Source of the DNA: a virus
IMG/VR virus record: IMGVR_UViG_3300046535_000830
Span: 1-59,613 of that record
Reading direction: 5' to 3' (one strand)
Length of the DNA stretch: 59,613 nucleotides
The position numbers and the translations under genes were made by a program. Positions 925-26,865 of the stretch are shown here, in pieces. The notes under the pieces are model-generated. The model did no database searches, was not told the origin of the DNA, and worked only from the letters and a program-made list of their open reading frames with translations. Numbering within the stretch: the first letter of the stretch is position 1; the number at the start of each line of letters is the position of its first letter.

Positions 925-926
925 CC

Positions 927-1782: not shown

Positions 1783-1788
1783 CCATCC

Positions 1789-2975: not shown

Positions 2976-2976
2976 C

Positions 2977-3429
2977 ATGACCACAACCAACACCGCCACC
3001 CGGACCGCCCGCCGCCGCATGACCCAGGCCGCGCTCATCGCCGAAGGCCTGCGCCGCGCCGCGACCACCGACGCGTTCCAGATCCCCTTCCGCTGCCCCG
3101 CCTGCGGCCACGTCCAGCGAGCCGCCGACCTCCCGCCCGAGCGCGCCCTGCACGTCGCACAGGCCTGCTTCGGCTGCGAAGCGCTCGCCGAGCAGATGAC
3201 CGGCGACCAGCGCGCGGCACTGATCCGCGTGACGCTGCCCGGCGACGTGAGGACCGACTCGTTCCCGCTGGCCGACGAGTTCGACCAGGACGGCCCGAGC
3301 GCGGGCCACGGCAGGGCGCTGAGCGTCGTGCACGCCGTGGGCGACGCCGGACCCGCGATACCGCCTGAGGGGCCGTCAGCGGCAGCCGTGACGCCCGAGA
3401 CCGACGACATCGAAAGCGAGGCCTGCTGA
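2977..3429 (+). CDS. VVA0879-like small zinc-binding protein
   Basis: 150 aa with an ATG start. The N-terminus RRMTQAALIAEGLRRA is followed by FRCPACGHVQRAADL and a second cysteine pair, CFGCE, giving a CxxC...CxxC site. This resembles the short phage family named VVA0879, whose role is unknown to me. The last third is acidic and probably disordered. The stop overlaps the next start by one base. Confidence 0.5.
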   Translation: MTTTNTATRTARRRMTQAALIAEGLRRAATTDAFQIPFRCPACGHVQRAADLPPERALHVAQACFGCEALAEQMTGDQRAALIRVTLPGDVRTDSFPLADEFDQDGPSAGHGRALSVVHAVGDAGPAIPPEGPSAAAVTPETDDIESEAC

Positions 3430-4028
3430 TGCCCAACTCCGAGCGCGTCGCCCTCATCCTCACCGAAGCCGTCGTCGGCCCGCAGATCTGGCAGCACGGC
3501 ATATGCGACACCATGCCCGACGACGAATACGAACTCACCAAGCTCGCCGCCGTCGCCGTCCTCGAACTCGCCTGCCGCGCCATCGACTGGCCCCGACTGC
3601 TCGCCGACGCCGAGGCGCGCCACTACAGACTCCACCGCGGCGCAACCCCCACCGACTACGGCGCCATGGCCCAGCCCACCAACCGCGACGTGTGCGGCGA
3701 GTGCCTCCGCGAAGCGCTGCTCGCCCACGGCTTCACCGGCCATTCCCAGGACTGGGGCGCCGAACCGAAGGTGACCCGCCGCGCCGGTCACCTCGACTGG
3801 CCGCAGGTGTTCGCCGATGTCATCAAGCACCGGCGTCCGGGATACGTCGAGCGGCTTCACGCCCGGCAGCGCGAACTGGACGGCCACCAGATGCCCAAGC
3901 CGCCCTGCGAGGCCTGCGGCAAGCGGCCCGGCGAATACGGCGGCAGCCCCGGCGACGGCAACCTCTGCTCCCCCTGCTACGACGCCGCCATCGCCGGAGA
4001 GCTGGCCTGGGACGGAGAGCCGCGATGA
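3429..4028 (+). CDS. Hypothetical zinc-ribbon protein
   Basis: 199 aa. Two cysteine-rich parts are visible: VCGECLREAL near residue 90 and a C-terminal CEACGKRPGEYG...LCSPCYDAAI, a four-cysteine ribbon. The N-terminal half is helical. The gene overlaps the next one by ATGA. It is one of several small Zn-ribbon proteins in this block, probably nucleic-acid or protein binders; function unknown. Confidence 0.5.
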   Translation: MPNSERVALILTEAVVGPQIWQHGICDTMPDDEYELTKLAAVAVLELACRAIDWPRLLADAEARHYRLHRGATPTDYGAMAQPTNRDVCGECLREALLAHGFTGHSQDWGAEPKVTRRAGHLDWPQVFADVIKHRRPGYVERLHARQRELDGHQMPKPPCEACGKRPGEYGGSPGDGNLCSPCYDAAIAGELAWDGEPR

Positions 4029-4828
4029 CCACCCGCCCCCCGGCTCGTACCGGCCCCACTCGGCCCGCGAACGCGCGCCGTTTCGTCGACGCCGAACCCG
4101 CCCGCGTCCACCTGCGCTACCTCTCCCAACACGGCATCGGCTTCCGCGCCGTCGCCGAACACGTCGGCACAAGCCGCAGCACCATCGAACGGATCGCAGG
4201 CATCGGCGCCGGAAAACGCCGACCCAGCCGAGCCGTCACCCGCCACACCGCCGCCGCCATCCTCGCCATCCAGCCCGGCATCGACACCGCGCGCGATGGC
4301 GCCTTCGTCGACCCCGCCGGCAGCACCCGGCGCCTTCAGGCTCTCGTCGCCCTCGGCTTCCCCGGCAGGTTCCTCGCCGCGCGCCTCGGCGCCGACCCGA
4401 AATGGCTCCCCATCTACCGCATCCCCGAGCACGTCCGCGCTGTATCTGCGCGCGCCATCCGCGACCTGTACGACGAGCTGTCCATGCGCAGCCCGGCCGA
4501 ATTCCCGGAGATCGACCTGCGCGGTTCGACGCGCGCCCGCAACCACGCCCGCGCCCTCGGCTGGCCGCGCCCCCTCGAATTGGACGACGACCTCATCGAC
4601 GACCCGAGCGCCACGGCTCAGCGCGTCGAGCGCGTCGAGGAGCGCGGGCGCACCGTCACCGACGACGAGATCGAAGACGCCATGTGGATCATCCGCACGA
4701 CCGGCGCCGACATGAGCCACGAACACGAGCGCGCAGTCGTGGCCGACCGGCTCGGCGTCGCGATCCACCGGCTCGAATACATCCTCGCGAAGGTCGCCGG
4801 CCGCGTGCAGTTGGCGGCGGCGGCATGA
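4025..4828 (+). CDS. HTH DNA-binding protein
   Basis: 267 aa from an ATG at 4025 overlapping the preceding stop. Residues about 28-60 (HLRYLSQHGIGFRAVAEHV, then GTSRSTIERIAG) read as a helix-turn-helix. A second HTH-like part lies near the C-terminus (AVVADRLGVAIHRLEYILAKV). This layout is common in Streptomyces phage regulators of unknown target. It sits directly before a VRR-NUC nuclease, with which it may be co-regulated. Confidence 0.55.
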   Translation: MTTRPPARTGPTRPANARRFVDAEPARVHLRYLSQHGIGFRAVAEHVGTSRSTIERIAGIGAGKRRPSRAVTRHTAAAILAIQPGIDTARDGAFVDPAGSTRRLQALVALGFPGRFLAARLGADPKWLPIYRIPEHVRAVSARAIRDLYDELSMRSPAEFPEIDLRGSTRARNHARALGWPRPLELDDDLIDDPSATAQRVERVEERGRTVTDDEIEDAMWIIRTTGADMSHEHERAVVADRLGVAIHRLEYILAKVAGRVQLAAAA

Positions 4829-5187
4829 CGGCCCGCGTCGCCTCACCGCGCGCCGCCATCGCCTTGACGGAGGAGCAGTTCCTCCAGCAGGTCCGGCAAC
4901 TCGCCCAGATCTGCGGATGGATCACCTACCACACCCGCGACTCGCGCCGCTCCGACCCTGGCTACCCCGACCTTTCGATGTTCCACCGCGGCCAGGGCCG
5001 GGCGCTGTTCGTCGAGCTCAAGAAGCACGACGGACGGCTGTCCGGGCCGCAGGTCGACTGGCTCACGATGATCAGCGAGTCCGGGTTCGAAGCCGACGTG
5101 TGGCGCCCGGCCGACATGCCGCGGATTAAGGCGATCCTGCGCGGCCAGTCCATCCCCACCCATCGAGCGACAGAGGAGTTCCACTGA
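4825..5187 (+). CDS. VRR-NUC domain nuclease
   Basis: 120 aa, the usual size for stand-alone phage VRR-NUC proteins. The PD-(D/E)xK core is clear: DPGYPDLSM (D49), then LFVELKK (E64, K66) and the helix GPQVDWL (Q76). Family members cut branched or structured DNA, for example Holliday or flap-type intermediates, so a role in resolving replication or recombination intermediates is likely. The start is an ATG overlapping the previous TGA; the stop overlaps the next ATG by one base. Confidence 0.8.
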   Translation: MTARVASPRAAIALTEEQFLQQVRQLAQICGWITYHTRDSRRSDPGYPDLSMFHRGQGRALFVELKKHDGRLSGPQVDWLTMISESGFEADVWRPADMPRIKAILRGQSIPTHRATEEFH

Positions 5188-6125
5188 TGACCGAGCCCAC
5201 CCTCAGGGTCCTATCCCTAGGTGCCGGGGTGCAGTCGACAACGCTGTTGCTGCTCGCTGCCGAGGGTCGAATCGGCCCGCTCGATGCCGCGATCTTCGCG
5301 GACACCGGCTGGGAACCGAAGGCCGTCTACGAGCACCTCGACCGCATCGAACGCGAGGTGGCGAAGGGCGCCGGGATCCCGATCTACCGAGTGTCCACAG
5401 GCAATATCCGCGAGGACGCGCTCACCCCGGATCACCGGTTCGCCTCCATGCCGCTGTTCATCAAGAACCAGGACGGCGGCGACGGGATGACCCGACGCCA
5501 GTGCTCGAACGAGTACAAGGTGACCCCGATCAAGCGGAAGGTGCGACAGCTTCTCGGCTACGAGCACCCGACCCCGGTACCGCGCGGCGTGTTCGTCGAG
5601 CAGTGGATCGGGATCAGCCGAGACGAGTTCGGAAGGGCCAAGGACTCTGACGTCCGCTACGCCCGCAATACGTTCCCGCTGCTCGACATGACGGGGGGGG
5701 CAGACGGTCGCGTCGGCTGGACCCGCTCCGACTGCCAGCGCTACCTGCGCTCCGTAGGATTCGGCGACACCCCCAAGAGCGCGTGCATCGGCTGCCCGTT
5801 CCACGGAAACGCCCAGTGGCGGCGAATGAGGGACGAGCACCCCGAGGAGTGGGCGGACGCCGTCGACTTCGACGCCTCGATCCGCAAGGGCTCGGCCTGC
5901 GCCCCGGCGAACGGCCACGACCTGCTCGGCGAGGCGTATCTGCACCGCTCTCGGCTCCCGCTGAGCGAAGCGCCGATCGACCGCGTCACGGCGCACGAGT
6001 GGAAGTCCCAGCAGGTCGACCTGTTCGACGCCGTGGCCGACCAGGAGGCCGAGGACGGCGATCCGGACGGCTGCTCGCCCTGGGCATGCCGCAGCGGGAC
6101 GGCCGTAGGCGGCGAAGCGAGTTGA
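5187..6125 (+). CDS. PAPS-reductase-like PP-loop protein
   Basis: 312 aa. The PP-loop is SLGAGVQST (residues 10-18), the ATP pyrophosphate-binding motif of adenine nucleotide alpha-hydrolases. Four cysteines at 106 (RRQCSNEYK), 183, 200 and 203 (CIGC) resemble the Fe-S or thiol-relay cysteines of PAPS reductase and DndC-type proteins. Phage members are common but their substrate is mostly unknown; sulfur transfer, DNA or tRNA modification and plain sulfate metabolism are all possible. An eight-G run at 5693-5700 lies inside the gene and is a possible slippage site. Confidence 0.65.
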   Translation: MTEPTLRVLSLGAGVQSTTLLLLAAEGRIGPLDAAIFADTGWEPKAVYEHLDRIEREVAKGAGIPIYRVSTGNIREDALTPDHRFASMPLFIKNQDGGDGMTRRQCSNEYKVTPIKRKVRQLLGYEHPTPVPRGVFVEQWIGISRDEFGRAKDSDVRYARNTFPLLDMTGGADGRVGWTRSDCQRYLRSVGFGDTPKSACIGCPFHGNAQWRRMRDEHPEEWADAVDFDASIRKGSACAPANGHDLLGEAYLHRSRLPLSEAPIDRVTAHEWKSQQVDLFDAVADQEAEDGDPDGCSPWACRSGTAVGGEAS

Positions 6126-13273: not shown

Positions 13274-13294
13274 CCGGACCAGGGGGTGAGCGTC

Positions 13295-16054
13295 ATGCCG
13301 TGGCCTGCCGACCTCACCACCAAGACCGTCACCAGCTCGTACCCGAACAACGGCACAGGCCTCAACGGCTGGTGCAGCTTCGTGCCCACCGCCGACCTGG
13401 CCGACTCGACCGGCCTCGCGATCCTGCGCGCCGCGCCCATGCAGGAGCAGGTCACGAACGGCGTGATGGCCCCGATCGTGCTGCCGTGCACCGACAATGC
13501 CGACCTCAGTCCGTCCGGCTGGGCGTGGACCGTCGTCGAGAACCTCCAGGGCGCGCCCCCGCGCGTCTGGTCGTTCTTCCTGCCGCACACGCTGCCCTCG
13601 ACGGTCGACCTCTCGGCGCTCACGCCGCTGGTCACCCCGCCGAGCCTCGTGCAGTACCTGCTCGCGGCGAACAACCTCAGCGACCTGACCAACCCGGCGG
13701 CCGCGCGCACGAGCCTCGGCCTCGGATCCGCCGCGACGCAGGCCTCCACGGCATTCGACGTCGCCGGCGCGGCCGCGACCGCGCTGGCGACCGCCGAGTC
13801 GTTCGCAACCAGCGCGGTCGCCACGGAAACGACCCGCGCCCAGACCGCCGAAGCGGGCAAAGCGCAGGGCCTCACCGTCACCGCCGTGCAGACCGCCTCG
13901 TACGCGATGGCGCTCGGGGACTTCGCCCGGTTCGACGTGTCCGGCGGCTCGGTGAGTCAGCCGCTGCCGTCCGGCGCCACGTCCGGCGCCAGGGTCGGCG
14001 CGAAACTGATCAAGAACTCGGCGACCAACAGCAACACGGTCACCCTCACCTGCCAGGGCAGCGACGTGTTCAACGTCGCCGGCGGGTCCACGTCGCTCGC
14101 CTTGACCCTCCCCGCGCAGGGCGTCGTCCTGCAGTACCTCGCGGGCAGCCCCGGCGTGTGGACCGTGCAGTCCGACGACATTCCGCTGACCCCGCTGCGC
14201 AACCTGTTCCCGGACTGGCTCAACGGCAAGGGCTACGGCGCGGTCGGTAACGGCGTGCGGCTGACCGACGGCGCGATGACTGCCGCGTCGAACGTGTTCA
14301 CCTCGGCGTCGGCGAGCTTCACCGCGGCGGACGTCGGCAAGCTGATCGTGGTCATGGGCGCGGGCGCGCTCAACGGCGCGGTCGGTGTCCCTCTCCCGGG
14401 CACGATCGCCGGGTTCACCTCGGCCACGCAGGTCACGCTCTCGGCCAGCGCGGTCACGACGGTGGCCGGGGCGACCGCGACCTACGGCACCGACGACCTG
14501 GCGAAGAACCAGGCGATGATCAACGCGTGCGCCCCTGGGCAGACCGCGTTCCTGCCGTACGGCATCTACATGCACTCCGGCGAGCTCTCGGTCACCACGC
14601 CGATCCGGCTCACGGGTGACGGCGCCACGATCGTCACCACCAACTCGGCCGCGATCAACTTCCAGAACACATACATCACCGCCGCGTCCGGGTCGTCCAC
14701 CACGATCGGCCTGGAGATCGACCACCTGGTGTTCGATGTCAGCGGCGGCCACGTGCTCTACAACTGCAACTGGAACAAGTTCTCCCTGCACGACCTGCGC
14801 CTGGTGCAGCGCTCGTACCAGTACGCCGTCTGGTACTCGACCGCGCAGAACCTGCTCGACACCGACGTGCGCAACGTCGTCACGCGGGTCTACGGCAACC
14901 CGCGCACAGTCCCGGCCTGGTACTTCAAGTCGGCGCTCGGCGGCGGCATCGCCATGTGGAAGTCGCAGAACACGCTGTTCCAGAACGGCGACCTCGACGC
15001 CACGCAGTACTACGTGTGGATCGAGTGCGAGGACGCGTCCAACCACAGCTACACCAACGACCTCACGTTCGAGCACGCGTGGTTCGACTCCGCATACGGC
15101 GGCTGCGTCAAGCTGCTCGCGACCCAGAGCGCGTCGTTCCGCAGCTGCAACGTGATCGACTCGTACTCGGCGACCTGGGGCAACTCCGCGTACTACATCG
15201 GCGCGGCCACGAGCAACGGCCTGTGGGCGAGCCAGAAGGTCAGCTTCCACGACTGCGGACGCGACCTCTCCGGCCCGAACGGCACCACCTCGTGGGACAT
15301 CGAGTGCGAGGCCACCACCGACTCGGTGACGATCTCGAACTATGCGATCCGCGACACCGTCCAGCCGCCGACGAACACGAAGCCGCAGTTCAATTTCCAC
15401 GGCTGCACGAACGTGCTGCTGCTGAACAACAAATTCCGGATCATCACCAACCCGGCGACCACGAGCGTCGAGCTCCTCGACGGCAACATCACCTACACCG
15501 GGCTGCTCTCCGGCGCGAACCAGCCGAACATCGACCTGCCGCAGCACCACGGCTGGCGCTCGTGGCCGTTCGACCTGAAGCTGTGCAACTCGACGGCCAA
15601 CCTGACCGCCGGCGTCCTGCAGATGGTGATGCAGTACATCAACGACACCGGCCCGCTGACCGGCGTCATGTTCAACCTGACCACCGCGCCCACGACGCCC
15701 ACCGCGGGCGAGAACTTCATCGCCTTGATCGACCAGTCCACCGGCTCCGTCGTGGCAGTCTCGGCCGACATGACCGCGGCCATCAGCACCTCGGGCGTGA
15801 AGAAGGTCCCATTCACCGCGCAGTTCACCCCCGTTGCCGGGCGCCTGTACTGGGCCGTGGTGCTGCCGAACTTCTCGGCCGGGACGTTCACGCTCGCCAG
15901 GCTGAGCAACGCCAACGGCCCGCTGAACAGCGGCCAGGGCGCCACGAACTACGAGTTCGCGACCAACGGCACTGCGCAGATCGCGGTCCCGGGCAGCATC
16001 ACCCCCAGTGCGAACGGCGCTGGCGGCGGCGCCTGGTGGGTCGGCACCTACTGA
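13295..16054 (+). CDS. Tail spike with pectate-lyase-like beta-helix
   Basis: About 919 aa; an ATG at 13295 with ggggg upstream, or a GTG at 13286. The N-terminal part contains the tail-fibre motif NNLSDLTNPAAARTSLGLGS (about 125-150) and an Ala/Thr coiled region. From about residue 300 (LFPDWLNGKGYGAVGNG) a right-handed parallel beta-helix of the Pectate_lyase_3 type begins, with YGTDDLAKNQAMINAC and repeated short strands to about 730. A C-terminal beta-sandwich follows. It is probably a receptor-binding depolymerase. Its place upstream of terminase is unusual. Confidence 0.7.
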   Translation: MPWPADLTTKTVTSSYPNNGTGLNGWCSFVPTADLADSTGLAILRAAPMQEQVTNGVMAPIVLPCTDNADLSPSGWAWTVVENLQGAPPRVWSFFLPHTLPSTVDLSALTPLVTPPSLVQYLLAANNLSDLTNPAAARTSLGLGSAATQASTAFDVAGAAATALATAESFATSAVATETTRAQTAEAGKAQGLTVTAVQTASYAMALGDFARFDVSGGSVSQPLPSGATSGARVGAKLIKNSATNSNTVTLTCQGSDVFNVAGGSTSLALTLPAQGVVLQYLAGSPGVWTVQSDDIPLTPLRNLFPDWLNGKGYGAVGNGVRLTDGAMTAASNVFTSASASFTAADVGKLIVVMGAGALNGAVGVPLPGTIAGFTSATQVTLSASAVTTVAGATATYGTDDLAKNQAMINACAPGQTAFLPYGIYMHSGELSVTTPIRLTGDGATIVTTNSAAINFQNTYITAASGSSTTIGLEIDHLVFDVSGGHVLYNCNWNKFSLHDLRLVQRSYQYAVWYSTAQNLLDTDVRNVVTRVYGNPRTVPAWYFKSALGGGIAMWKSQNTLFQNGDLDATQYYVWIECEDASNHSYTNDLTFEHAWFDSAYGGCVKLLATQSASFRSCNVIDSYSATWGNSAYYIGAATSNGLWASQKVSFHDCGRDLSGPNGTTSWDIECEATTDSVTISNYAIRDTVQPPTNTKPQFNFHGCTNVLLLNNKFRIITNPATTSVELLDGNITYTGLLSGANQPNIDLPQHHGWRSWPFDLKLCNSTANLTAGVLQMVMQYINDTGPLTGVMFNLTTAPTTPTAGENFIALIDQSTGSVVAVSADMTAAISTSGVKKVPFTAQFTPVAGRLYWAVVLPNFSAGTFTLARLSNANGPLNSGQGATNYEFATNGTAQIAVPGSITPSANGAGGGAWWVGTY

Positions 16055-16071: not shown

Positions 16072-16821
16072 ATGCTCCAGGACTACCGGTACGCGCGGCC
16101 CCACGACGCGGCCGAATGCCCCGTGTGCGCGCCGTCCGGCCCCGGCCATCCGCTGTGCCAGGCGCCGGGCTGCCAGAACGTGGCCGAATTCCAGGTCCCG
16201 CGTCACGCCACACAGGCGGAATACGACGCGCTGCCCGAGGAGCGCAAGCCGATCGACGGGCTCGCCCACCAGTCCGTGTTCGCGTGCGACGACGACGCCC
16301 ACGCCGAGGCGACCGCAGCGTTCTGCACGCACCCCGAACCCAAGTCGCCCACGTGCCCCACATGCAACGCGGCCGTCGACGCGCCCTGCGTCAAAGCCGA
16401 CGGCACCGAGCGCACCGTCCACCACGCCGCACGGTCGAAGAAGCCCGGGGTCTACGACGTGTGCCTGCACGCGCACCGCGAGGACTGCCAGGTCTTCACC
16501 GGCTGCCAGTGCACCGGCGACGACGCAGCCCCGGCTCGCATCCCGCGCACCGTTGCACCCCCCGATCATGCGGACGGCAGCAGGTCCAAGCTCCCCGCCG
16601 AGATCGTCAAGACGCTCGCCGAGGCCTGGGACGTCCCCTGGTGGACCGTCCAGACCTACTGGACCGGCCTGACGCAGGACAACCTGCCCATGGTCACCGT
16701 CGAGTACTGGCAGCTCGACGCGGACGGCAACATCGACCACGACGAGCACGGGGCGGAGATCCCGCTTTCCAAGGTCATCGCGCTGGACGGGACGCTCCCG
16801 CCAGCGCTCGCTGGACCGTAA
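16072..16821 (+). CDS. Hypothetical Cys-rich (multi zinc-site) protein
   Basis: 249 aa from an ATG at 16072 with AAGGAGG close upstream. Several cysteine pairs occur: CPVCAPSG, CQAPGCQN, CPTCNAAVDAPCVK, CQCTGD. The part CPTCNAAVDAPCVKADGTER resembles the phage Zn-finger element CPxC..xGxPC found in many actinophage proteins. The C-terminal 80 residues are Trp-rich. It follows the tail spike in the same operon. Function unknown. Confidence 0.5.
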   Translation: MLQDYRYARPHDAAECPVCAPSGPGHPLCQAPGCQNVAEFQVPRHATQAEYDALPEERKPIDGLAHQSVFACDDDAHAEATAAFCTHPEPKSPTCPTCNAAVDAPCVKADGTERTVHHAARSKKPGVYDVCLHAHREDCQVFTGCQCTGDDAAPARIPRTVAPPDHADGSRSKLPAEIVKTLAEAWDVPWWTVQTYWTGLTQDNLPMVTVEYWQLDADGNIDHDEHGAEIPLSKVIALDGTLPPALAGP

Positions 16822-16877
16822 CGGCACGAACGCGCCGCCTACCTACGCGCCGCCACGAGCACCACGAAGGGGGAACC

Positions 16878-18143
16878 GTGACCGCCCTCGACGCGAGCGC
16901 CGGCATGGCCTACATCGCGACCCGAAGCGTGCCGCTCGACGAACTGACCCCGTACCCCGGCAACGCCAAGCGCGGCGACGTCGAGGCGATCCGCGGCTCG
17001 CTGCGCAAGAACGGCCAGTACCGTTCCCTCGTCGTGCGCTCCATCCCGAACGGGCCGCTGGTGGTGCTCGCCGGCAACCACACCATGCAGGCGCTCGCCG
17101 CGGAAGGCCACACGGAAGCGCGCTGCGAGATCATCGAATGCGACGACGCGACCGCGCGGCGCATCAACCTTGCTGACAACCGCACCTCGGAACTCGGCAC
17201 GTATGACGACGAGGCGCTCGCGGAACTGATCAGCGCGCTCGACGGGGACTACGACGGCACCGGCTGGGTGCAGGACGACCTCGACGCGATCCTCGGCGGG
17301 ATCGAGGAACTGCCGCCGGCCCTCGGCGACCCGGACGACGTGCCGGGCGCGCCCGCGCAGCCAGTTAGCACGCTGGGGGACCTGTGGCTCCTCGGCCCGC
17401 ACCGCCTCATGTGCGGCAACTGCAGCGAGCCCGACGTGCTCGAGCGGGCAGTGGGGGACCTCGAGCCGAGGCTCGTGTATACGGACCCTCCCTACGGCAT
17501 CGCGATCGTGAAGAAGAACGGCAAGATTGGATCGGGGGGAAGGTTTCGCGGCAAGATCGGCGACGGAAAGATCGTCTCCGCCACCGAATACCTTCCCGTG
17601 GCTGGCGATGAATCCACCGACGTCGCCCGCGACGCTTTCGCCCTGGTCACCGCCGAGTATCCGGCGGCCAGGCATATCTGGTGGGGCGGCAATCACTACG
17701 CCAACTCCGCCGGACTGCCCGACGCCTCCTGCTGGCTCGTATGGGACAAAGAAAACGGCAGCAACGACTTCGCCGACGCTGAGCTCGCCTGGACCAATCA
17801 CCCCGGCGCAGTACGCCTGTTCCGGCACATGTGGAATGGGATGCTGCGCGCCAGCGAACGCGGCCCGCGGGTCCACCCGACGCAGAAGCCGGTCGCGCTC
17901 GCAGCCTGGGCGATGGGCGTCGTAGACCCAGACAGCACGCGCAAAATCGTGCTCGACATCTTTGCGGGCAGCGGCTCAACGCTCATGGCCGCCCACGAAA
18001 CCGGTCGCGTGGCGGTCCTCATCGAGATGGAACCGGGCTACGTCGACATCATCTGCCGCCGCTTCCAGGAGTACACCGGCACCAAGCCGATCCTCGCCTC
18101 GACCGGCCAGCCGCACGACTTCACCGCCCCGCCGCAACAGTAG
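16878..18143 (+). CDS. ParB-N domain fused to beta-class DNA methyltransferase
   Basis: 421 aa with a GTG start after gggggaacc. Residues about 15-110 are a ParB/Srx N-terminal domain (LTPYPGNAKRGDVEAIRGSL, LAGNHTMQALAAEG). The methylase follows with DPPYG (D203-Y206) before FAGSGS (F362-G366), the beta-group order for N6-adenine or N4-cytosine methylation. The fusion is common in phages. It is an orphan, with no restriction enzyme nearby, so host-restriction evasion is likely. It is not a partition protein by this architecture. Confidence 0.8.
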   Translation: MTALDASAGMAYIATRSVPLDELTPYPGNAKRGDVEAIRGSLRKNGQYRSLVVRSIPNGPLVVLAGNHTMQALAAEGHTEARCEIIECDDATARRINLADNRTSELGTYDDEALAELISALDGDYDGTGWVQDDLDAILGGIEELPPALGDPDDVPGAPAQPVSTLGDLWLLGPHRLMCGNCSEPDVLERAVGDLEPRLVYTDPPYGIAIVKKNGKIGSGGRFRGKIGDGKIVSATEYLPVAGDESTDVARDAFALVTAEYPAARHIWWGGNHYANSAGLPDASCWLVWDKENGSNDFADAELAWTNHPGAVRLFRHMWNGMLRASERGPRVHPTQKPVALAAWAMGVVDPDSTRKIVLDIFAGSGSTLMAAHETGRVAVLIEMEPGYVDIICRRFQEYTGTKPILASTGQPHDFTAPPQQ

Positions 18144-18152
18144 GAGGCGATC

Positions 18153-18590
18153 GTGGCCGCATCGAACGCGCAGCGCGCAGCGACCGCCGACCGGCGCGCC
18201 AAGGCCATCGCCATGAAGCTCGCCGGCGTCGACTTCCAGGTCATCGCCGACCGGCTCGGCTACTCCAGCCGCGGCGCCGCCACCAAGGATGTGCACCGCG
18301 CACTGGAGGCGAACCTCGCCGAAGAAGCCGCCGCATCCGAGTTGCTGCGCCATCAGGAAGCCGCGCGCCTCGACCGCCTGCAGGCTGCCGTATGGACCAC
18401 CGCGCTCAGCGGCGATGTGCGTGCGATCGAAACCGTGCTGAAGATTAGCGCGCAGCGTGCGCGGCTACTCGGCCTGAACGCGCCCGAGAAGCACGAGGTG
18501 ATCACCCTTGACTACCTCGACGCTCAGATTCGAGACGCCACCGAAGAGCTTGCTCGAGCTGCGGCTGCAGAAGCTGCAGACCCTTCGTGA
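18153..18590 (+). CDS. terS: Terminase small subunit
   Basis: 145 aa with a GTG start and aggaggcgatc upstream. The N-terminal half contains an HTH (AIAMKLAGVDFQVIADRLGY, SSRGAATKDVHRAL), followed by a long helix (RLDRLQAAVWTTALSGDVRA) and an oligomerisation-like tail. This matches small terminases that recognise the packaging site. It overlaps the large subunit by 83 bp, so the two are translationally coupled. Confidence 0.75.
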   Translation: MAASNAQRAATADRRAKAIAMKLAGVDFQVIADRLGYSSRGAATKDVHRALEANLAEEAAASELLRHQEAARLDRLQAAVWTTALSGDVRAIETVLKISAQRARLLGLNAPEKHEVITLDYLDAQIRDATEELARAAAAEAADPS

Positions 18591-20202
18591 ACTCAAGCTC
18601 AAGCAGCTTGAGCTCACCCGCTCGAAGGCGCGCACCCAGTACGCCACACCCGGGTTGCTCGCAGCCTCGGTAGACCGCACAACAATACAAACCCCGGCGC
18701 TCGACGTCATCGACGCCGCGCTGGTAGACGTCGCCGAAGGCCGCTGCGACCGGCTGATCATCAGCATGCCGCCGCAGGAAGGCAAGTCCACCCGCGTCAC
18801 CACGACGACGCCGCTGTGGCTGCTGCTCCGCGACCCCGAACTGCGCGTCGCGATCGCCTCCTACGGGCAGGACCTGGCGCAGGAGTTCGGCCAAGCCATC
18901 CGCGACATGATCGCCGCGAACAGCGGCGACGAAGGCACGCTCGACCTCGGGTTGCGGATCGCGCCGGACAATGGCGCCGCCGCTCGCTGGAAGCTCGACG
19001 GCCACCGCGGCGGCGTGCGCTCGGTAGGCCTCGGCTCCGGCCTGACGGGACGCCCGGCGGACGTGCTGTTCATCGACGACCCGATCAAGGGCCAGGAGGA
19101 CGCCGACTCCGAGACCTGGCGCAACCGGGTGTGGAACTGGTGGCAGAAGGTCGGCTCCACGCGGCTCGCCCCCGGCGCCCCGGTGATCCTGGTTCTGACC
19201 CGCTGGCATGAGGACGACCTCGCCGGCCGCCTGATCGCGGCCGAAGACGGCCACCGCTGGCGTGTGATCAACATTCCGGCGCTCGCGGACCACAAGCCCG
19301 AAGCGGGCGAGAGCGACCCGCTCGGGCGCGACCCGGGCGTGTGGCTGGAGTCCGCGCGCCGCCGCACCGAAGAGCAGTGGGAGCAGATCCGCGTCCAGGC
19401 GGGCACCCGCGGGTTCAACGCCCTGTATCAGGGGCGGCCGTCTCCGGACTCCGGGTCGGTATGGAAGCGCGAATGGTGGCGCCGGTTCGACGCGCCGATC
19501 TGGTCGCAGCACCCGGACATCGCCGAGGCGTACTGGATCGAGGACTGCGACGAGGTCCTGATCTCGGCGGACATGGCGTTCAAGGACACCAAGGGCTCCG
19601 ACTTCGTCGCGATGGGCGTGTGGGTGCGGCGCGGCGCGATGATCTACCTGGTCGATCAGGTGGTCAAGCGGCTGAGCTTCACCGAGACGCTCGCCGCGTT
19701 CCAGGCGCTGTGCCGCAAATGGCCCCAGGCCACGGCGAAGCTCGTCGAGGACAAGGCGAACGGCACCGCGGTCATCGACTCGCTGCGCAAGAAGATCGTC
19801 GGAATCATCCCGGTCAACCCGACCGAATCGAAGTACGCCCGCGCGCAGGCGGTCGGCCCGATGGTCGAGGCCGGGAACGTGTTCCTGCCGACCCGGGCGA
19901 TCGCCCTGTACGACGTCGACGCGTTCATCGACGAGGCCGCGGCGTTCCCGCAGGCGTCCCACGACGACCAGGTCGACCAGGCATCGCAGGCGCTCTCACG
20001 GCTGCTGCTGCGCGTCGGCCAGGGCGCCGCATACCTCGAGGCGATGAAGCGGCGCGCAGCCGCCGAGGGCATCGAGATCCCCGAACAGACACGCCGACGG
20101 CGCGACAAGCCGACACCTATACGAGCAACGGGAGGACGGCGACGTGCAGACCTCCCTGGCCCCGCGCAGGTACTTCCGGAAGTCATCCGCCGCCCCCTCT
20201 AG
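18508..20202 (+). CDS. terL: Terminase large subunit (TTG start)
   Basis: 564 aa. The Walker A variant is MPPQEGKST (about 87-95), Walker B is VLFIDDP (186-192). The RNase H-like nuclease acidic residues are in ISADMAFKDT (near 352) and SHDDQVD (near 491). It packages DNA into proheads through the portal. I accept the TTG start because GAGGTGATC at 18495-18503, complementary to the 16S 3' end, lies at the right distance and no ATG/GTG fits better. It overlaps terS by 83 bp and the portal gene by 59 bp. Confidence 0.85.
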   Translation: MTTSTLRFETPPKSLLELRLQKLQTLRELKLKQLELTRSKARTQYATPGLLAASVDRTTIQTPALDVIDAALVDVAEGRCDRLIISMPPQEGKSTRVTTTTPLWLLLRDPELRVAIASYGQDLAQEFGQAIRDMIAANSGDEGTLDLGLRIAPDNGAAARWKLDGHRGGVRSVGLGSGLTGRPADVLFIDDPIKGQEDADSETWRNRVWNWWQKVGSTRLAPGAPVILVLTRWHEDDLAGRLIAAEDGHRWRVINIPALADHKPEAGESDPLGRDPGVWLESARRRTEEQWEQIRVQAGTRGFNALYQGRPSPDSGSVWKREWWRRFDAPIWSQHPDIAEAYWIEDCDEVLISADMAFKDTKGSDFVAMGVWVRRGAMIYLVDQVVKRLSFTETLAAFQALCRKWPQATAKLVEDKANGTAVIDSLRKKIVGIIPVNPTESKYARAQAVGPMVEAGNVFLPTRAIALYDVDAFIDEAAAFPQASHDDQVDQASQALSRLLLRVGQGAAYLEAMKRRAAAEGIEIPEQTRRRRDKPTPIRATGGRRRADLPGPAQVLPEVIRRPL

Positions 20203-23200
20203 CGCGCAGCTCGCGCTCGCCCCGGGCCGCACGCCCGCCGCGATCCAGGACGGCCTGAGCCGCGACGGCATGGACTCCGGCTCCTACCTGGGCCCCGGAC
20301 GCCCGCTGCAGCCCGCGATCGGCTACTCGCCGCGCCCGCGCTCGACGGACTACCCGATGTCCGTCAACATCGCGACGCAGGGCCGCGCGGCGTGGGGACG
20401 GCCGTCGTACGGCGTCCTGAAGGCGATCATCGACGCGTACGACGTCGCGCGGATGTGCGTCAACCACAAGATCGACGAGTTGCGCAGCATGGAGCCGATG
20501 TTCCTGCCCGCCGACGGCGTCAAGGACGACGTGGACGACGCGATCGACGTCGCGAAGCTCGTGCTCGCCTACCCGGACCGGGAACTGCCCTACGACTCGT
20601 GGCTGAGCAAGTGGCTCGAGAACGCCGTCAAATACGACTCCGCGCCGCTCTACCGGCGCCGCAACTACAACGGCGACATCATCGGCCTCGAGGTCGTGGA
20701 CGGAAAGACCGTCAACCCGTACATCGACGAGAACGGGCGCCGCCCCGAACCGCCGTCCCCGGCGTTCTACCAGACCGTCAAGGGCATGGTCGCGGGCTGG
20801 TTCACCACCGACGACCTGATTTTCGTGCCGTTCCGGCCGCAGGAGGACACCCCGTACGGGCTCGCCCCGATCGAGTCGATCCTGCTGACCGCGAACACGG
20901 ACATCCGCTTCCAGTGGCATTTCCTGCAGATGTTCACCGACGGGTCCGTCCCGGCCGGGTTCATGGAGCTGCCCCCGGACATCTCCGCACCGGAGCAGGT
21001 CGAGGAGTGGCAGGACTACTGGGACGCCGTCGTCATGGGCGATCAGGCGAAGCTCGCGCAGCTGATCGCCGTACCGAACGGCACGAAGTTCACCCCGACG
21101 AAGCCGGGCACGTTCGACGAGAAGTTCCCGCAATACCTGATGCGCCGCACCTGCGCCGCGTTCGGCGTGGTGCCGCAGGATCTCGGGTTCGTCGAGACCG
21201 TGAACCGCGCCAACGGCGAAACCCAGGTCGACGTGCAGTTCCGCGTCAACACCCTGCCGTGGGTGCGTTACGTCGAGGGGCACCTGACCCGGTACCTGCA
21301 GCACGACCTCGGCCTGCCGGTGAAGGTCGCGCTCGATACCGGCCGCGACAAGGAGGACCGGCTCGCCGAAGCCCAGGCGCACCAGCTGTACGTCGAGATG
21401 GGCGCCGAGTCCCCCGACGAGGTGCGCTCGGAGATCCTCGGGCTGCCGATCGACCAGGAGCGCCCGACGCCGCGGTTCTTCTCCACTCCGCGCATCGGCG
21501 TCATCCCGCTGCTCGCCATCGAGGGTGTCGCGGGGCGCACCGACCCGGAGACCTACGGTCCGGCGAAGGATCAGCCGATCCTGGACCAGCCGTACGTGCC
21601 GCCGATCGGTGTCGTGCCCACGCCGGGCACCACGGACGACAAGGCGTCGCTGGCGGCTACCGACCAGTACCAGATCCAGACGCGGCGCGCGCTCCAGGCC
21701 GAGCAGGGTGGCAAGGAGCGCGAGTCGGACACGGACAAGTCCGCGCGCGGCCAGAAGGCCGAGCAGGAGCAGGCCGACGCCGTGGCCGAGGCCAGCGACG
21801 TATCCGAGGCCGCCGGCGCCCAGGACGGGCCGGACGCGGGCGACGACGAGCAGCAGCCCGGCAAGCCGGTCGCCAAGGGCGAGGTCATCGACGGCCGGGA
21901 GGCCGAGGAACTCGCGGCGTTCCGCACGTTCGTCGCCGGCCGGGTGCGCAAGGGCGCCTGGCGCGACTTCACGTTCGCGACGCTGCCGAAGCACATCGCG
22001 TCGGAGCTCAACCGCGGCGGACGCGCCGAAGTGGTCGCCAAGCAGGCGGCGAAGGGCGCGGGCGCGCATGGCGTTCCGGGCCTGACGAAGCGCTCCGGCA
22101 TGATCTCGCTCGACCTCGACCCCGGCACGATCGCAACCGTGCCGGGCGGTGTGGACGATCACCACATCACGATCGTCTACCTCGGCCCGGACGTGGACGA
22201 CGAGGCGTTCGAGCGCGCCTGCCAGCGCGCCCAGGCCGCGGCGTCGGCACAGGCCGGACCGATCGAGGGCAGCGTCGGAGGCCTCGGCGCGTTCCCGCCC
22301 TCGGACGGCAGCGACGGGAAGATCCCCGCGTTCGCGCAGGTCGACGTCCCCGCGACGAAGGACCTATACACGCGGCTCAAGGACCTGTCCGCAGCCGGGC
22401 GCCGCACCTACACCCCGCACGTCACCCTCGCCTATGTCGACCCGGGCGAGCAGTTGCCCGACGCCGTCCCGGACACCGCAGTGCGCTTCACGCACCTGTC
22501 GGTGCACCGCGGCGACCAAGTCAACCGCTACCCGCTCGGCGGTCCCGGCGCGGTCACCCCGACCGAAGTGGTGAAGGCGAACTTCGCCGACCCAAAAGCC
22601 TCGGCCGGGCAGTCGACTGACTGGCCCGGCTGGCGCTACGACCTCGAGGCCGCCGCCTACTGGGGACCTCGGATCGCCGCCGCGGTGCTCGCCTCCGTCG
22701 ACCTCCAGTCGATCGCGAGCGGCTGGCTCGCGGGACAGCACCCTGAGGACAACGGCCACGACGGCGAGAAGGAACGCCGCAAGGCCCTGACCATCACCGC
22801 CGCGGCATGGCTGGCCGTGTACACGGCGCGGATCAACGCCGCGCTGCGCACCGTCCTCTCGGAGGTGTGGACCGACGGGTACGCGATCGGCACCGCCGCC
22901 GGTGACGCGCTCACCTCCGGCCAGCTGATGGACCTCGGCGGCTGGGAACCCGGCGAGATCGCAGCAGCAGACCGGCTGATCCTCGCGCGCGGAGACGCAC
23001 CGGGCCTGCGGGCCCTTTTCGAAGCGGCGCAGCACACGATCGGGCTGATGGCCGACGCGCGCACCGACGCGATGGCCAGGGCGCTCGCCGACGCCGTGAT
23101 CAACGGACGGTCGGCGGACTCGCTCGGAGCCGCACTGCGCGCGCTGCTCGCCGACCCGGACCGCGCGGTGCGCCTGGCGCTCAGCGAACTGACCCGGGCA

Positions 23201-23404
23201 TCCGGCGCCGGCGCGCAGGGCGTGTACGGCGCTCGCAGGATCGCCGCGACCCGCTGGATCACCGCAGAGGACGAGCGCGTGTGCGCGATCTGCGACGCCA
23301 ACGCCGACGCCGGGCGCATCCCGCTCGGCATGCCGTACCCGTCCGGCGACATGTACCCGCCCGCGCATCCGGGCGGCTGCCGGTGCGCCACGATCCCCGG
23401 CTGA
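20144..23404 (+). CDS. Portal protein fused to 2H phosphoesterase and MuF-type head domain
   Basis: 1086 aa with a GTG start. Residues about 1-505 are a portal (GVLKAIIDAYDVARMCVNHK, YGLAPIESILLTANTDI, GETQVDVQFRVNTLPWVRYV). After an Ala/Asp/Gln linker, residues about 640-800 hold two H-x-T motifs, HIT at 674-676 and HVT at 759-761, 85 residues apart: a 2H phosphoesterase (LigT/2'-5' ligase-like) domain. Residues about 830-1086 are a MuF/SPP1 gp7-like minor head domain ending CAICDANADAG...PGGCRC. Portal-MuF fusions are known; the enzyme in between is unusual. It could travel inside the virion and act on a nucleotide substrate in the new host. Confidence 0.8.
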   Translation: MQTSLAPRRYFRKSSAAPSSAQLALAPGRTPAAIQDGLSRDGMDSGSYLGPGRPLQPAIGYSPRPRSTDYPMSVNIATQGRAAWGRPSYGVLKAIIDAYDVARMCVNHKIDELRSMEPMFLPADGVKDDVDDAIDVAKLVLAYPDRELPYDSWLSKWLENAVKYDSAPLYRRRNYNGDIIGLEVVDGKTVNPYIDENGRRPEPPSPAFYQTVKGMVAGWFTTDDLIFVPFRPQEDTPYGLAPIESILLTANTDIRFQWHFLQMFTDGSVPAGFMELPPDISAPEQVEEWQDYWDAVVMGDQAKLAQLIAVPNGTKFTPTKPGTFDEKFPQYLMRRTCAAFGVVPQDLGFVETVNRANGETQVDVQFRVNTLPWVRYVEGHLTRYLQHDLGLPVKVALDTGRDKEDRLAEAQAHQLYVEMGAESPDEVRSEILGLPIDQERPTPRFFSTPRIGVIPLLAIEGVAGRTDPETYGPAKDQPILDQPYVPPIGVVPTPGTTDDKASLAATDQYQIQTRRALQAEQGGKERESDTDKSARGQKAEQEQADAVAEASDVSEAAGAQDGPDAGDDEQQPGKPVAKGEVIDGREAEELAAFRTFVAGRVRKGAWRDFTFATLPKHIASELNRGGRAEVVAKQAAKGAGAHGVPGLTKRSGMISLDLDPGTIATVPGGVDDHHITIVYLGPDVDDEAFERACQRAQAAASAQAGPIEGSVGGLGAFPPSDGSDGKIPAFAQVDVPATKDLYTRLKDLSAAGRRTYTPHVTLAYVDPGEQLPDAVPDTAVRFTHLSVHRGDQVNRYPLGGPGAVTPTEVVKANFADPKASAGQSTDWPGWRYDLEAAAYWGPRIAAAVLASVDLQSIASGWLAGQHPEDNGHDGEKERRKALTITAAAWLAVYTARINAALRTVLSEVWTDGYAIGTAAGDALTSGQLMDLGGWEPGEIAAADRLILARGDAPGLRALFEAAQHTIGLMADARTDAMARALADAVINGRSADSLGAALRALLADPDRAVRLALSELTRASGAGAQGVYGARRIAATRWITAEDERVCAICDANADAGRIPLGMPYPSGDMYPPAHPGGCRCATIPG

Positions 23405-23418
23405 CGAAGGAGGCTGCG

Positions 23419-23811
23419 ATGGCTGACGAGCAGCGCTACGTCCTCGGGATCGCCTACCAGGCGGGCCCCGACCCGAAGATCCGCAAAGGGATGGACGGGT
23501 CCCGCGACTTCTTCTCCGAGGTGGAACTGGAGAAGGCCGCGTTCGAGTTCCTGCGCAGCGGCCCGGTCGTGGGCCTGTTCCACGCCGACGGCACGCAGGG
23601 CGCCGCGACGGTCGTCGAGTCGTACATCTACCGCGGCCCAAACTGGCAGGTCACCGGTCCCGACGGGTCGACGACGGTGGTCAAAAAGGGCGACTGGCTC
23701 GTCGGGGCGATCCTCTCCCCCGAGGCCTGGGACCTCTACAAGCGCGGCAAAGTCACCGGCTGGTCGCCGCAAGGCGTCGCCCGCCGCATCACCCGTAGGA
23801 GCGGCGGATGA
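23419..23811 (+). CDS. XkdF-like (S78_2) prohead protease
   Basis: 130 aa from an ATG after GAAGGAGGCTGCG. The arrangement LFHADGTQGAATVVESYIY (H55), WLVGAILSPEAWDLYKRG and KVTGWSPQG (S116) fits the XkdF-type putative serine protease domain of PBSX-like phages, with H55 and S116 as likely catalytic residues. It would process capsid or scaffold during head maturation. It overlaps the scaffold-like gene by ATGA. Confidence 0.65.
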   Translation: MADEQRYVLGIAYQAGPDPKIRKGMDGSRDFFSEVELEKAAFEFLRSGPVVGLFHADGTQGAATVVESYIYRGPNWQVTGPDGSTTVVKKGDWLVGAILSPEAWDLYKRGKVTGWSPQGVARRITRRSGG

Positions 23812-25298
23812 CCACCGAAGACGACGGCGAGTTCGGCGAACTGGCGGACCTGAAGACCGAGGCGATGCACGCGGTCGGCAAGGCCGCGAACGGCACCTCG
23901 TTCCTGGTCGCCAAGTCCGCGGCCGACGACGCGCCGGGCGGACTGCTGGACGGCGACCTGGTGCGCGATCTCGTCGCGAAGGCTGAGGCCGACGAGCGGC
24001 AGACCTCGCCCGTGACCGTCTCGGGCACCCCGGCCGCGGTCGCGGACATGATGGCCCGGGTGCACGCGGGCGCGGTGCGCAAGTCCGAGGCGCTCGACTG
24101 GGTCGTCAAGGCCGCCGATGGCGAGTACGTGGCGTTCCTCAAGGCCAAGTACTCGGCCGACGACAAGCGGAAGCTCGCCGCGCGCGGCCACGCGATGCGC
24201 AACGCCGACGGCGAGCCGGACTATCCGATCGACGACGAGGAAGACCTCGGCAAGGCGATCCGCGCGGTCGGCCGTGGCGGAGCCGACCACGACAAGATCC
24301 GCAGGTACGTCATCGGCCGCGCCAAGGCGATGGGCAAGTCCGATCAGATCCCGGACAACTGGGCGTCGGACGGCTCGCTCAAGCAGCCGGTCTCCAAGGC
24401 CGACGCCACCGACCCCGGCTCCCCTACCTGGGAGGGCCAGGACGCTGCGAGCGCGGACGCCGTCGTCGCGAAGATCCTCGCCTGCGTCCCCGCCGTCAAG
24501 GCGCTCGCCATGCGCGAAGCCACCGAGGTCGGCGCGGGCCACCTCGAGGACTTCGGCGACGTACTCGACCTGCAATGCGCGATCGACCAGCTGACCTGTG
24601 CGGCGCAGACCGTCGCAGGGTTCGCCATCTCCGAGCGCGTCGAAGCAGGCGCCGTAAGCAAGGCGCAGGCTCCCGCCGCGCCCATCACCGCCGCCTCCGC
24701 GGCAACCTCATCCAAGGAGAACACCGTGGACACGACCGCAGAGGGCACCGCGGCGGCCGGTACCGAGCCCACCGCCGTCAGCAAGGCCGCGGCCCTGGCC
24801 GAGCAGCTCGGCATCAGCCCGGAGAAGCTCGCCGAGATCGGCGCGCAGGCCGTGCTCAAGGCCGCCCAGGACGCGGCGGCCACCCAGACCACCGACGCCA
24901 ACCCGGCGCCGGCCGACAACGCCCGGGTCATCCCGGGCACCGACACCGTCCAGGCGCCCGCACAGGCGACGGACGAGGTCAGCAAGGCGCAGGCGACTCT
25001 CGTCACTGCGCTCGCAGAGGTCATGGCACCGGTGGCGAAGCAGCTCGGAGAGCTGGCCACGCAGGTGAACGCCCAGGGCGAGCGCGTGGAGAAGATGGCG
25101 GCCAAGCCTGACGACCGCAGGTCCCCGCTGCTCAACGGCGCGACGGGTGAGCCGCAGGCCGCCCAGCGCGGCGTGACCGGCACCCCCGAGTACCAGTCGA
25201 TCATCAAGGCCATCGACGAACTGCCCGAAGGGCCGGTTCGCGACGCGGCCAAGGGAGCGATCGGCCTGAAGGCGATCGCGGCCCGCTTCGGCGGCTAG
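23808..25298 (+). CDS. Scaffold-like protein with DUF6582-type domain
   Basis: 496 aa. Residues about 100-185 (KYSADDKRKLAARGHAMRNA, YPIDDEEDLGKAIRAVGRGG, RRYVIGRAKAMGK) match the domain I know as DUF6582, often found beside prohead protease genes. The rest is Ala/Glu/Gln-rich and probably helical or disordered, ending with a conserved-looking tail (GPVRDAAKGAIGLKAIAARF). Position between protease and capsid and low complexity argue for a scaffold. No protease motif of its own is seen. Confidence 0.6.
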   Translation: MTTEDDGEFGELADLKTEAMHAVGKAANGTSFLVAKSAADDAPGGLLDGDLVRDLVAKAEADERQTSPVTVSGTPAAVADMMARVHAGAVRKSEALDWVVKAADGEYVAFLKAKYSADDKRKLAARGHAMRNADGEPDYPIDDEEDLGKAIRAVGRGGADHDKIRRYVIGRAKAMGKSDQIPDNWASDGSLKQPVSKADATDPGSPTWEGQDAASADAVVAKILACVPAVKALAMREATEVGAGHLEDFGDVLDLQCAIDQLTCAAQTVAGFAISERVEAGAVSKAQAPAAPITAASAATSSKENTVDTTAEGTAAAGTEPTAVSKAAALAEQLGISPEKLAEIGAQAVLKAAQDAAATQTTDANPAPADNARVIPGTDTVQAPAQATDEVSKAQATLVTALAEVMAPVAKQLGELATQVNAQGERVEKMAAKPDDRRSPLLNGATGEPQAAQRGVTGTPEYQSIIKAIDELPEGPVRDAAKGAIGLKAIAARFGG

Positions 25299-25374: not shown

Positions 25375-26865
25375 ATGGATCTCGACCAGATCAGCGAGGA
25401 AACTCTCTCGATCTTCAAGGCCGCGACAAGCGGTATCACCAGCTCCACCGGCATCCTCGGCGTCGACCTCTCGGACCTGATCTCCCTGGTTCCGGTCGTC
25501 ACGCCCCTCGGCGACGAGCTGGCGCGCACCGGACCGAACATGGGCTCGGACATCGCCCAGTGGGAGGCGCTGCTGAACGTCAACAACCAGCAGCCCAACC
25601 CCTCTGTCGCGCTCGACGCCGCCGGCCCGCTGGCGCTCAACCAGCTGATGAAGGTCTCCGCGCCGTACTACCCGCTGGCGATGGGCTACACGGTCACCCG
25701 TGACGCGATCGCCCGGTCCCGCGGCTATGCGGACGCGAAGGCGCGCGGCGTGTTCTCCGCGATCGCCCAGTGGAAGATCGGCCAGGACTGGAAGGCGTAC
25801 GGCGCGCAGAACTTCGCACTCCAGCGCCCGGTCGCCCCGACCGTCACCGACTCGGCCACCGGCGGCTCGATCGCCGCCTCGACCACCGTGCACGTCGGCG
25901 TCGCGGCCCGCACCGGCAGCGGCTACCACTACTGCAACGGCACCGGCACGGCCGGGCAGGGCAACTCGCAGGGCAACGTCGGGCAGGTCACCACCTCCAC
26001 GGTGGCCGCGGCGACGCACAGTGTCTCGGCGTCGACGACCTCCGTGGTCGGCGCGGTCGCCTACGACTGGTTCCAGTCGGCGGACGGCGCGACCTGGTTC
26101 TACTACACGACCACGACCATCCCCAGCGTGACCATGACCTCGGTCATCGTCGCCGCCCAGACGGTGCCGACGGCCACGTTCCCGGGCCTGTCGACCACGA
26201 CCCCGACGTTCAACTCGGCGGCCGACAACGGCTCGGCGGGCGTGAACGAGTTCAACGGCATGCTGGCCACGATCACCGCCGACTACACCACCAACGGCGG
26301 CCCGATCATCCAGCACGGCTCCGGCACCCCCTCGGGCGCGATCATCCAGGACGCGGCGGGCTCCCAGTTCACCGTGTCCGGCGGCGGCATCGCGCAGCTC
26401 GACGCCCTGAACGTCGCCCTGTACAACTCGGTCCAGCTCGGCCCGAGCGTGTACATGGTCAACGCGCAGGAGGCCAACAGCCTCGGCAAGCTGATCCTGA
26501 ACAGCCCCGGCGCGGTCACCTACCTGACGATGAACGACGCGGCGGGCCGTGGCGAGATCGTCGCGGGCGGCCGGATCGGCTCCTACGTCAACCGGCTCAC
26601 CGGCGAGCAGGTGCCGATCAAGCTGTACCCGAACTCGGCGCCCGGCACGCTGGTCGCCCGTCGCGACACGGTCCCGTTCCCGAACGCGGACGTCGGCAAC
26701 GTGTTCGAGATGCGCTGCCTGGACGACATGTACGACTACGTGTACGGCTCCAACCGCTCCAGCGGCGGTCCGCGAGACGACGGCGAAGTCCGCTCCCTGT
26801 CCACCTTCATCAACAAGGCACCGGTCGCGCAGGCTGTCCTGCAGTCGATCGCGCCGACGCCGTAG
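25375..26865 (+). CDS. Major capsid protein with inserted beta-sandwich domain
   Basis: 496 aa with an ATG start (ggcaggcaac upstream). The N-terminal half has HK97-like capsid features of actinophages (LSDLISLVPVVTPLGDELAR, GPLALNQLMKVSAPYYPLAM). A Thr/Ser/Val-rich insertion at about 160-290, with AYDWFQSADGATWFYYTTTT, looks like an Ig-like decoration domain. The capsid fold resumes with GGIAQLDALNVALYNSVQLG and the end TLVARRDTVPFPNADVGNVF. It assembles the icosahedral shell. Hairpins flank the gene on both sides. Confidence 0.75.
   Translation: MDLDQISEETLSIFKAATSGITSSTGILGVDLSDLISLVPVVTPLGDELARTGPNMGSDIAQWEALLNVNNQQPNPSVALDAAGPLALNQLMKVSAPYYPLAMGYTVTRDAIARSRGYADAKARGVFSAIAQWKIGQDWKAYGAQNFALQRPVAPTVTDSATGGSIAASTTVHVGVAARTGSGYHYCNGTGTAGQGNSQGNVGQVTTSTVAAATHSVSASTTSVVGAVAYDWFQSADGATWFYYTTTTIPSVTMTSVIVAAQTVPTATFPGLSTTTPTFNSAADNGSAGVNEFNGMLATITADYTTNGGPIIQHGSGTPSGAIIQDAAGSQFTVSGGGIAQLDALNVALYNSVQLGPSVYMVNAQEANSLGKLILNSPGAVTYLTMNDAAGRGEIVAGGRIGSYVNRLTGEQVPIKLYPNSAPGTLVARRDTVPFPNADVGNVFEMRCLDDMYDYVYGSNRSSGGPRDDGEVRSLSTFINKAPVAQAVLQSIAPTP

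Follow-up and report, generated by a model that had tools for sequence, protein, structure and literature searches.

Phage effectors that are packaged in the head are known mainly from T4, P1, N4 and the giant phages. In T4, the head protease gp21 trims the injected IP and Alt proteins (PMC9958956), and in SPN3US gp245 cuts the major capsid protein (MCP), the portal and the ejection proteins after AxE (PMC10052503). Nearer in architecture are the fusions described by Iyer et al. 2017 (PMC5512222), in which a 2H phosphoesterase is joined to a MuF or a portal domain and for which the accessible part of the paper proposes an RNase function or the degradation of defence nucleotides. A survey in Viruses from 2022 (PMC9503650), in its accessible text, repeats this proposal and includes NUDIX domains fused to MuF, portal and capsid protease. 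The accessible portions of both sources had also proposed that the 2H-MuF and 2H-portal fusions are packaged and injected, and they ascribe the release to embedded metallopeptidase domains. The 2H-portal/MuF fusion and the idea of an injected counter-defence enzyme are, in this sense, already known, and the new and testable part of the present analysis is the proposed release code.

The window analysed here, that is, the whole stretch of DNA, is the 59,613 nt of the IMG/VR virus record IMGVR_UViG_3300046535_000830, from a soil actinophage. Its host is not fixed, since a 2H scan of GTDB genomes returned no relative of the window domain; one Arthrobacter prophage has a related portal-NUDIX-MuF arrangement. 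The chain of interest (20144-23404; this and all other window features with a given strand lie on the plus strand) is open from a GTG at 20144, with GGGAGG a few bases 5' of it, to a stop ending at 23404, and comprises 1086 aa. Its 5' end overlaps the end of the gene for the terminase large subunit (18508-20202, start uncertain; phrog_38, E 4e-105). The portal domain (residues 86-446, 20399-21481) is recognised by a local profile and by Pfam Phage_portal (PF04860, residues 102-429, E 2.3e-21), and it has the late-gene place directly after the terminase that is expected of a portal. It is followed by a disordered linker (residues 543-581, 21770-21886, pLDDT below 50 throughout), by a conserved helical “KGKWRDF” element (residues 589-630, 21908-22033), which in the nearest relatives lies ahead of the slot, by the 2H domain (residues 650-799, 22091-22540) and, after a second disordered linker (residues 801-823), by the MuF domain (residues 933-1086, 22940-23401). 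The Pfam match of the latter (Phage_Mu_F, PF04233, residues 978-1084, E 1.8e-5) scores 25.8 bits, slightly below the cut-off of 29.6; the assignment is nevertheless secure, because 26 of 42 relatives match at E<=0.001 and because C1047, C1050, H1075 and C1081 of its C1047xxC...H1075...C1079RC1081 pattern are conserved, with C1047, H1075 and C1081 invariant across 27 chains. The three-domain chain that an earlier note had read from the letters alone is hence borne out by Pfam and by the relatives, and the two H-x-T motifs, 85 residues apart, are exactly where that note had placed them: H674-I-T676 (22163-22171) and H759-V-T761 (22418-22426), the predicted catalytic motifs.

That the inserted domain is a genuine member of the 2H phosphoesterase superfamily follows from several comparisons. 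Pfam 2_5_RNA_ligase2 matches residues 674-781 (E 2.8e-7; its 31.1 bits exceed the cut-off of 27), and LigT_PEase reaches 23.0 bits, slightly under its cut-off of 23.3. An AlphaFold2 model built on an alignment of 36 rows has a mean pLDDT of 91.8 and shows the two-lobed 2H core whose presence the earlier note had made the test of its enzyme claim. Searched against the PDB with Foldseek, this model gives 38 matches at E<=0.001, nearly all of them known 2H enzymes, led by Deinococcus CPDase (5h7e, TM 0.70, E 9e-7), with E. coli LigT and Thermus TT0787 (2'-5' RNA ligase/ThpR type) and then Usb1 (TM 0.65) further down. A single-sequence phmmer search of the domain against the PDB found zero matches, whereas an alignment profile succeeded, its four best chains (2fyh, 5h7e, 1vdx and 1iuh) being of the ThpR/LigT type. 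In the viral library, the nearest relatives are proteins of actinophages (of Gordonia, Mycobacterium and Brevibacterium), many of them annotated as “RNA ligase”; PADLOC gave no match. A scan of IMG/VR yielded 40 loci with a 2H of the window kind, and among the 38 distinct sequences compared (40-71% identity) H674 and T676 are retained in all 38, and H759 and T761 in 36 of the 37 that reach this position, each being lost in one. A chance origin of the pair can be rejected on this conservation, on the predicted fold and on shuffles of the same stretch, only 0.4% of which contain two H-x-T-hydrophobic motifs. As nearly every one of the 38 relatives retains both motifs, the domain is very probably an active enzyme.

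Which substrate such an enzyme would have is a separate matter. The earlier note had pointed to Acb1, the anti-CBASS enzyme, but the comparison does not single it out: the Pfam Acb1 model (PF23474) finds no match in the window protein at E<=1, and phage Acb1 (7t26) occupies rank 40 among the fold matches (TM 0.50, E 1.9e-3), behind the ThpR/LigT type (up to 0.70) and Usb1. A virion-borne, Acb1-like 2H that degrades the cyclic di- or trinucleotides of CBASS or type III CRISPR as infection begins is a tentative and somewhat unlikely reading. It draws on the fold common to both, on a DNA-coupled delivery that would suit such an enzyme, on its earlier proposal in the accessible text of PMC5512222 and PMC9503650, and on the weak matches of some other head-module 2H proteins to the Acb1 model (Cantare gp9, E 6e-4), while the nearer folds lie elsewhere and the host of the window phage, with its defences, is not fixed. 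Both by profile and by fold, the best matches among solved structures are proteins of the RNA 2',3'-cyclic phosphodiesterase type, which would fit a ThpR/LigT-like enzyme repairing RNAs after their cleavage by nucleases of the host, or an RNase of the Usb1 kind. However, the fold rank does not fix the substrate, the window contains zero tRNA genes, neither an RNA ligase nor an RNA kinase was found among roughly 30 of its ORFs scanned, and 2H versions of this kind were never found next to RNA ligases according to the accessible part of PMC5512222, so that RNA-end processing appears unlikely.

Portal relatives were collected from 67 IMG/VR loci, and the content of the stretch between portal and MuF was recorded for 41 distinct portal-MuF chains: 15 carry a NUDIX domain, 9 a 2H, 4 two domains, 1 a ParB-like domain and 7 none, the remaining 5 having enzymes solely after MuF. 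Along the portal tree, the state changes at least 6 times for 2H, at least 8 times for NUDIX and at least 3 times for ParB (these counts are approximate, being based on a quick tree). Even sister portals differ, as in L022, with a 2H, and L019, with ParB plus NUDIX; likewise, the flanks of the empty L042 are otherwise alignable with those of L043 and L126, in which a NUDIX sits between VAKS and (L)AKA. No enzyme domain was found in L005, L042 and L085. In the cultured Arthrobacter phages Sonali and Mufasa8, the slot holds a NUDIX (E about 1e-20), and L112 encodes a single 1390-aa chain (348-4517) with the order portal, 2H, MuF and VIP2-type ADP-ribosyltransferase (ART). The portal-MuF junction is, therefore, a cassette slot whose cargo is swapped between sister portals, in a family of chains that combines structural head domains with variable enzymes (2H, NUDIX, ParB-like and ART). 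A further domain, of the DGHHR type, occurs in L025, L019, L021 and L069, alone or together with NUDIX or 2H; among solved structures it is closest to free serine kinase, SbnI and ParB (E values of 5e-4 or poorer).

This ParB/SerK-like domain accompanies 2H in many head chains, often adjoining it (L025:2451-2810, L069:6696-7055, L104:4596-4958 and 15 more sites), and has only marginal matches in Pfam (ParBc_2, E 0.03; DUF1015, E 0.001). In the portal ORFs of L045, L081 and L104, the portal domain is split by intein-like inserts of ~150-340 aa that begin with CYS/CYT..TEVLT. The structural region of Tunturiibacter phage Tunturi_5 encodes a 1362-aa protein (ORF321; L018:3432-7520) with SprT-like, 2H, ART-PolyVal and GNAT domains, annotated as a MutT/NUDIX hydrolase only.

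Downstream of the portal chain lie the genes expected of a head module. The first encodes an XkdF-type head maturation protease of 131 aa (23416-23811; PF14550, E 5.9e-14, above the cut-off; phrog_3017), the putative cutter of what follows; next come a scaffold-like protein of 496 aa (23808-25298), with a weak C-terminal match to phrog_3017, and a major capsid protein candidate (25375-26865; phrog_13692, E 2e-31) homologous to the annotated MCPs of Sonali and Mufasa8. Matches of the region 23281-23811 to phrog_1530 and phrog_14859 indicate that other phages appear to fuse either a DNA methyltransferase or a domain annotated as RNA ligase (2H) N-terminally to the same protease, a hint that the protease gene may be a second cargo slot. 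Upstream of the terminase, the window encodes a protein that joins a ParB-like domain to an N6/N4 DNA methyltransferase (16116-18143) and one of 922 aa that contains a beta-helix region resembling pectate lyases (13286-16054); further away are a PAPS-reductase-like protein (5187-6125; phrog_424, E 1e-53) and a GntR/UTRA transcription regulator, unusual for a phage (49044-49787).

When the linkers of the portal chains were inspected, a hydrophobic-x-K-A sequence was seen at many domain borders. Formulated as [VIL]-x-K-[AS], this motif is nearly absent from the other ORFs of the window genome, which is poor in lysine, and is found 12 times in the window scaffold (1.3 expected). Across 40 scaffold relatives it is observed 273 times against 42.6 expected (6.4-fold), and in portal-chain linkers 122 times against 27.1 (4.5-fold), the folded domains having 50 against 36.3. 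The reversed motif stays at 0.85-fold in scaffolds and 1.18-fold in linkers, and replacing K by R, E, D or Q brings both down to about 1-fold. With all lysines aligned, the information content is raised at two positions alone, -2 (V, I, L) and +1 (A, S), a signal present in scaffolds and linkers and absent in domains. An effect of composition or of coiled coils was rejected on these reverse-motif, residue-swap and position controls. A strict site lies within 60 aa before the enzyme domain in 22 of 48 cases and within the same distance after it in 27 of 48, with about 3 expected on each side, about half of the enzyme boundaries being without one. In most MCP relatives the motif has one fixed place close to the N-terminus, a little beyond “ETL” (IFKA, IKKA, IAKA, LFKA), where the window candidate has IFK|A at residues 13-16. 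The enrichment is weak in the most distant group (L104, L106, L113, L116 and L121). In another group in which XkdF is present, the Arthrobacter phages Salgado and Kovu, the scaffold position is taken by a motif-rich protein, and LTKA separates the 2H from the XkdF domain fused to it; in GTE6 and Cantare, neither the enrichment nor an XkdF match was found among the scanned proteins. The portal of Chidiebere and one protein of DalanDe carry some motifs, though the search for an XkdF protease there was negative.

The motif is directional, specific for K and located in scaffold, linkers and capsid N-terminus near the protease, and for these reasons it looks like the cut site of the XkdF-type head protease. 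A docking site could just as well be distributed in this way over scaffold, portal linkers and the N-terminus of the capsid protein; the motif would then serve packaging or scaffold binding, and the 2H would remain attached to the portal with a role in structure or assembly. We consider this improbable, given the direction of the motif, its requirement for K, its confinement to the -2 and +1 positions and its location in disordered linkers at domain borders near a protease; besides, both HxT motifs would hardly be retained in a 2H whose role was structural only. Returning to the motif as a cut site, the window chain has one candidate on each flank of the helical element plus 2H, V576-A-K578|G579 and V809-V-K811|A812 (22568-22579), in the disordered linkers 543-581 and 801-823, respectively. 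Cutting at both would yield a portal of 63.6 kDa, a 2H of 24.4 kDa (residues 579-811) and a MuF of 28.6 kDa. Taken alone, the window chain shows no enrichment of the strict motif (2 observed, 1.2 expected), so that the argument for this chain is drawn from the family and from position; the site before the 2H ends in G rather than A or S, and relatives have VAKG or VAKS at that spot. The release by proteolysis that the earlier note had suggested thereby gains support at the level of sequence, from a motif resembling a protease site on both flanks of the 2H, the cutting itself being what we infer from it.

The mechanism that we regard as probable leads from a head polyprotein, through a protease-freed 2H in the capsid and its ejection with the DNA, to the hydrolysis of a nucleotide phosphodiester. 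The product of 20144-23404 would be a head polyprotein that assembles as the portal ring, carrying its C-terminal part (2H, then MuF) into the prohead. There, the XkdF-type protease would cut [VIL]-x-K-|-[A/S/G] sites, shredding the scaffold, shortening the capsid protein at its N-terminus by about 15 residues and cutting the portal chain on either side of the 2H, with the result that about 12 free copies of a ~24 kDa enzyme would be left within the capsid. The freed 2H would leave with the DNA during ejection and, in the opening minutes of infection, would hydrolyse a phosphodiester bond of a nucleotide. Twelve copies in a cell of 1 fL correspond to about 20 nM, enough, assuming full ejection and a kcat of 1 per second, to remove about 7,000 molecules within ten minutes, or about 12 uM; at that assumed rate, an enzyme in portal stoichiometry would be adequate against a signalling nucleotide. 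Whether the portal-MuF chain serves a whole group of actinophages as a loader for cargo in general, with an exchangeable slot for small enzymes (2H, NUDIX, ParB/SerK-like), XkdF release at [VIL]-x-K|[AS] and about 12 effector copies per virion ejected with the DNA, is in our judgement evenly balanced. The open papers that could be searched, subscription journals and preprints lying outside the search, describe neither a K-ending site nor an XkdF specificity, contain no interchangeable-cargo slot with a cut-site code and offer no virion proteomics bearing on these proteins; PMC10792529 and the BCSR5 literature held nothing relevant.

As to the substrate, a host-made nucleotide signal, either a cyclic oligonucleotide or an NAD-derived one, has about an even chance and is more likely than RNA-end healing, a nucleotide-signal or NAD-type chemistry being favoured, although not decisively, by the alternation of the slot with NUDIX and by the ART and SerK-like company. 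The narrower proposal that 2H, NUDIX, ART and ParB/SerK-like domains all act on NAD-derived products, with ADP-ribose cyclic phosphate, cyclic ADP-ribose signals or ADP-ribosylation products as candidate substrates, has in its favour this alternation, the L112 chain, the Chidiebere 2H gene adjoining a VIP2-like ART gene and a framework given in the accessible text of PMC9503650, but this is co-occurrence only and both the NUDIX and the 2H families have many other substrates, which makes it decidedly doubtful. If release of the 2H by the head protease is true, it would explain how an enzyme fused to the portal, with only 12 copies, still acts in the cell, and a cut-site code in small actinophages would allow the prediction, from sequence only, of the proteins freed in the head. 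It would also provide the XkdF protease family with a predicted specificity and name a set of first-minute effectors to be screened against nucleotide-based defence. The cultured phages Sonali, Mufasa8 and Salgado make the code directly testable.

Compared with the systems described so far, the window shares with the polyvalent 2H-MuF and 2H-portal proteins the same fusion of head domain and enzyme, but their release is assigned to a metallopeptidase in the accessible parts of PMC5512222 and PMC9503650, and not, as proposed here, to the protease of head maturation acting at a defined site; nor do those parts describe a single junction at which cargo is exchanged. From T4 gp21 and SPN3US gp245 comes the precedent of a head protease with a short site that cuts scaffold, capsid and internal cargo, and the window resembles T4 in having one short motif in its scaffold, its putative cargo and the N-terminus of its capsid protein and in encoding the protease within the same operon; its cutting would differ in a site ending in K, an XkdF-type protease and a cargo placed inside the portal chain. 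ThpR and LigT have the fold and the two HxT motifs of the window 2H, with the best profile and fold matches, at only about 15-18% identity and with LigT_PEase just under its cut-off. Acb1 shares the superfamily and the phage origin, but its profile is unmatched, its fold match is weaker and it is synthesised, unfused, once infection has begun. Salgado gp18 and Kovu gp20 also have a 2H in the head module, with LTKA between it and the protease, although there the 2H is fused to the XkdF protease and not to the portal-MuF chain. Gp3 of Sonali and Mufasa8 (portal-NUDIX-MuF) belongs to the same portal family as the window chain (about 46% identity) and uses the same junction, in phages with the protease-scaffold-capsid order of the window, scaffolds rich in the motif and a capsid N-terminus with IKKA; it carries a NUDIX instead of a 2H, placed before the helical element, whereas the 2H of the window comes after it.
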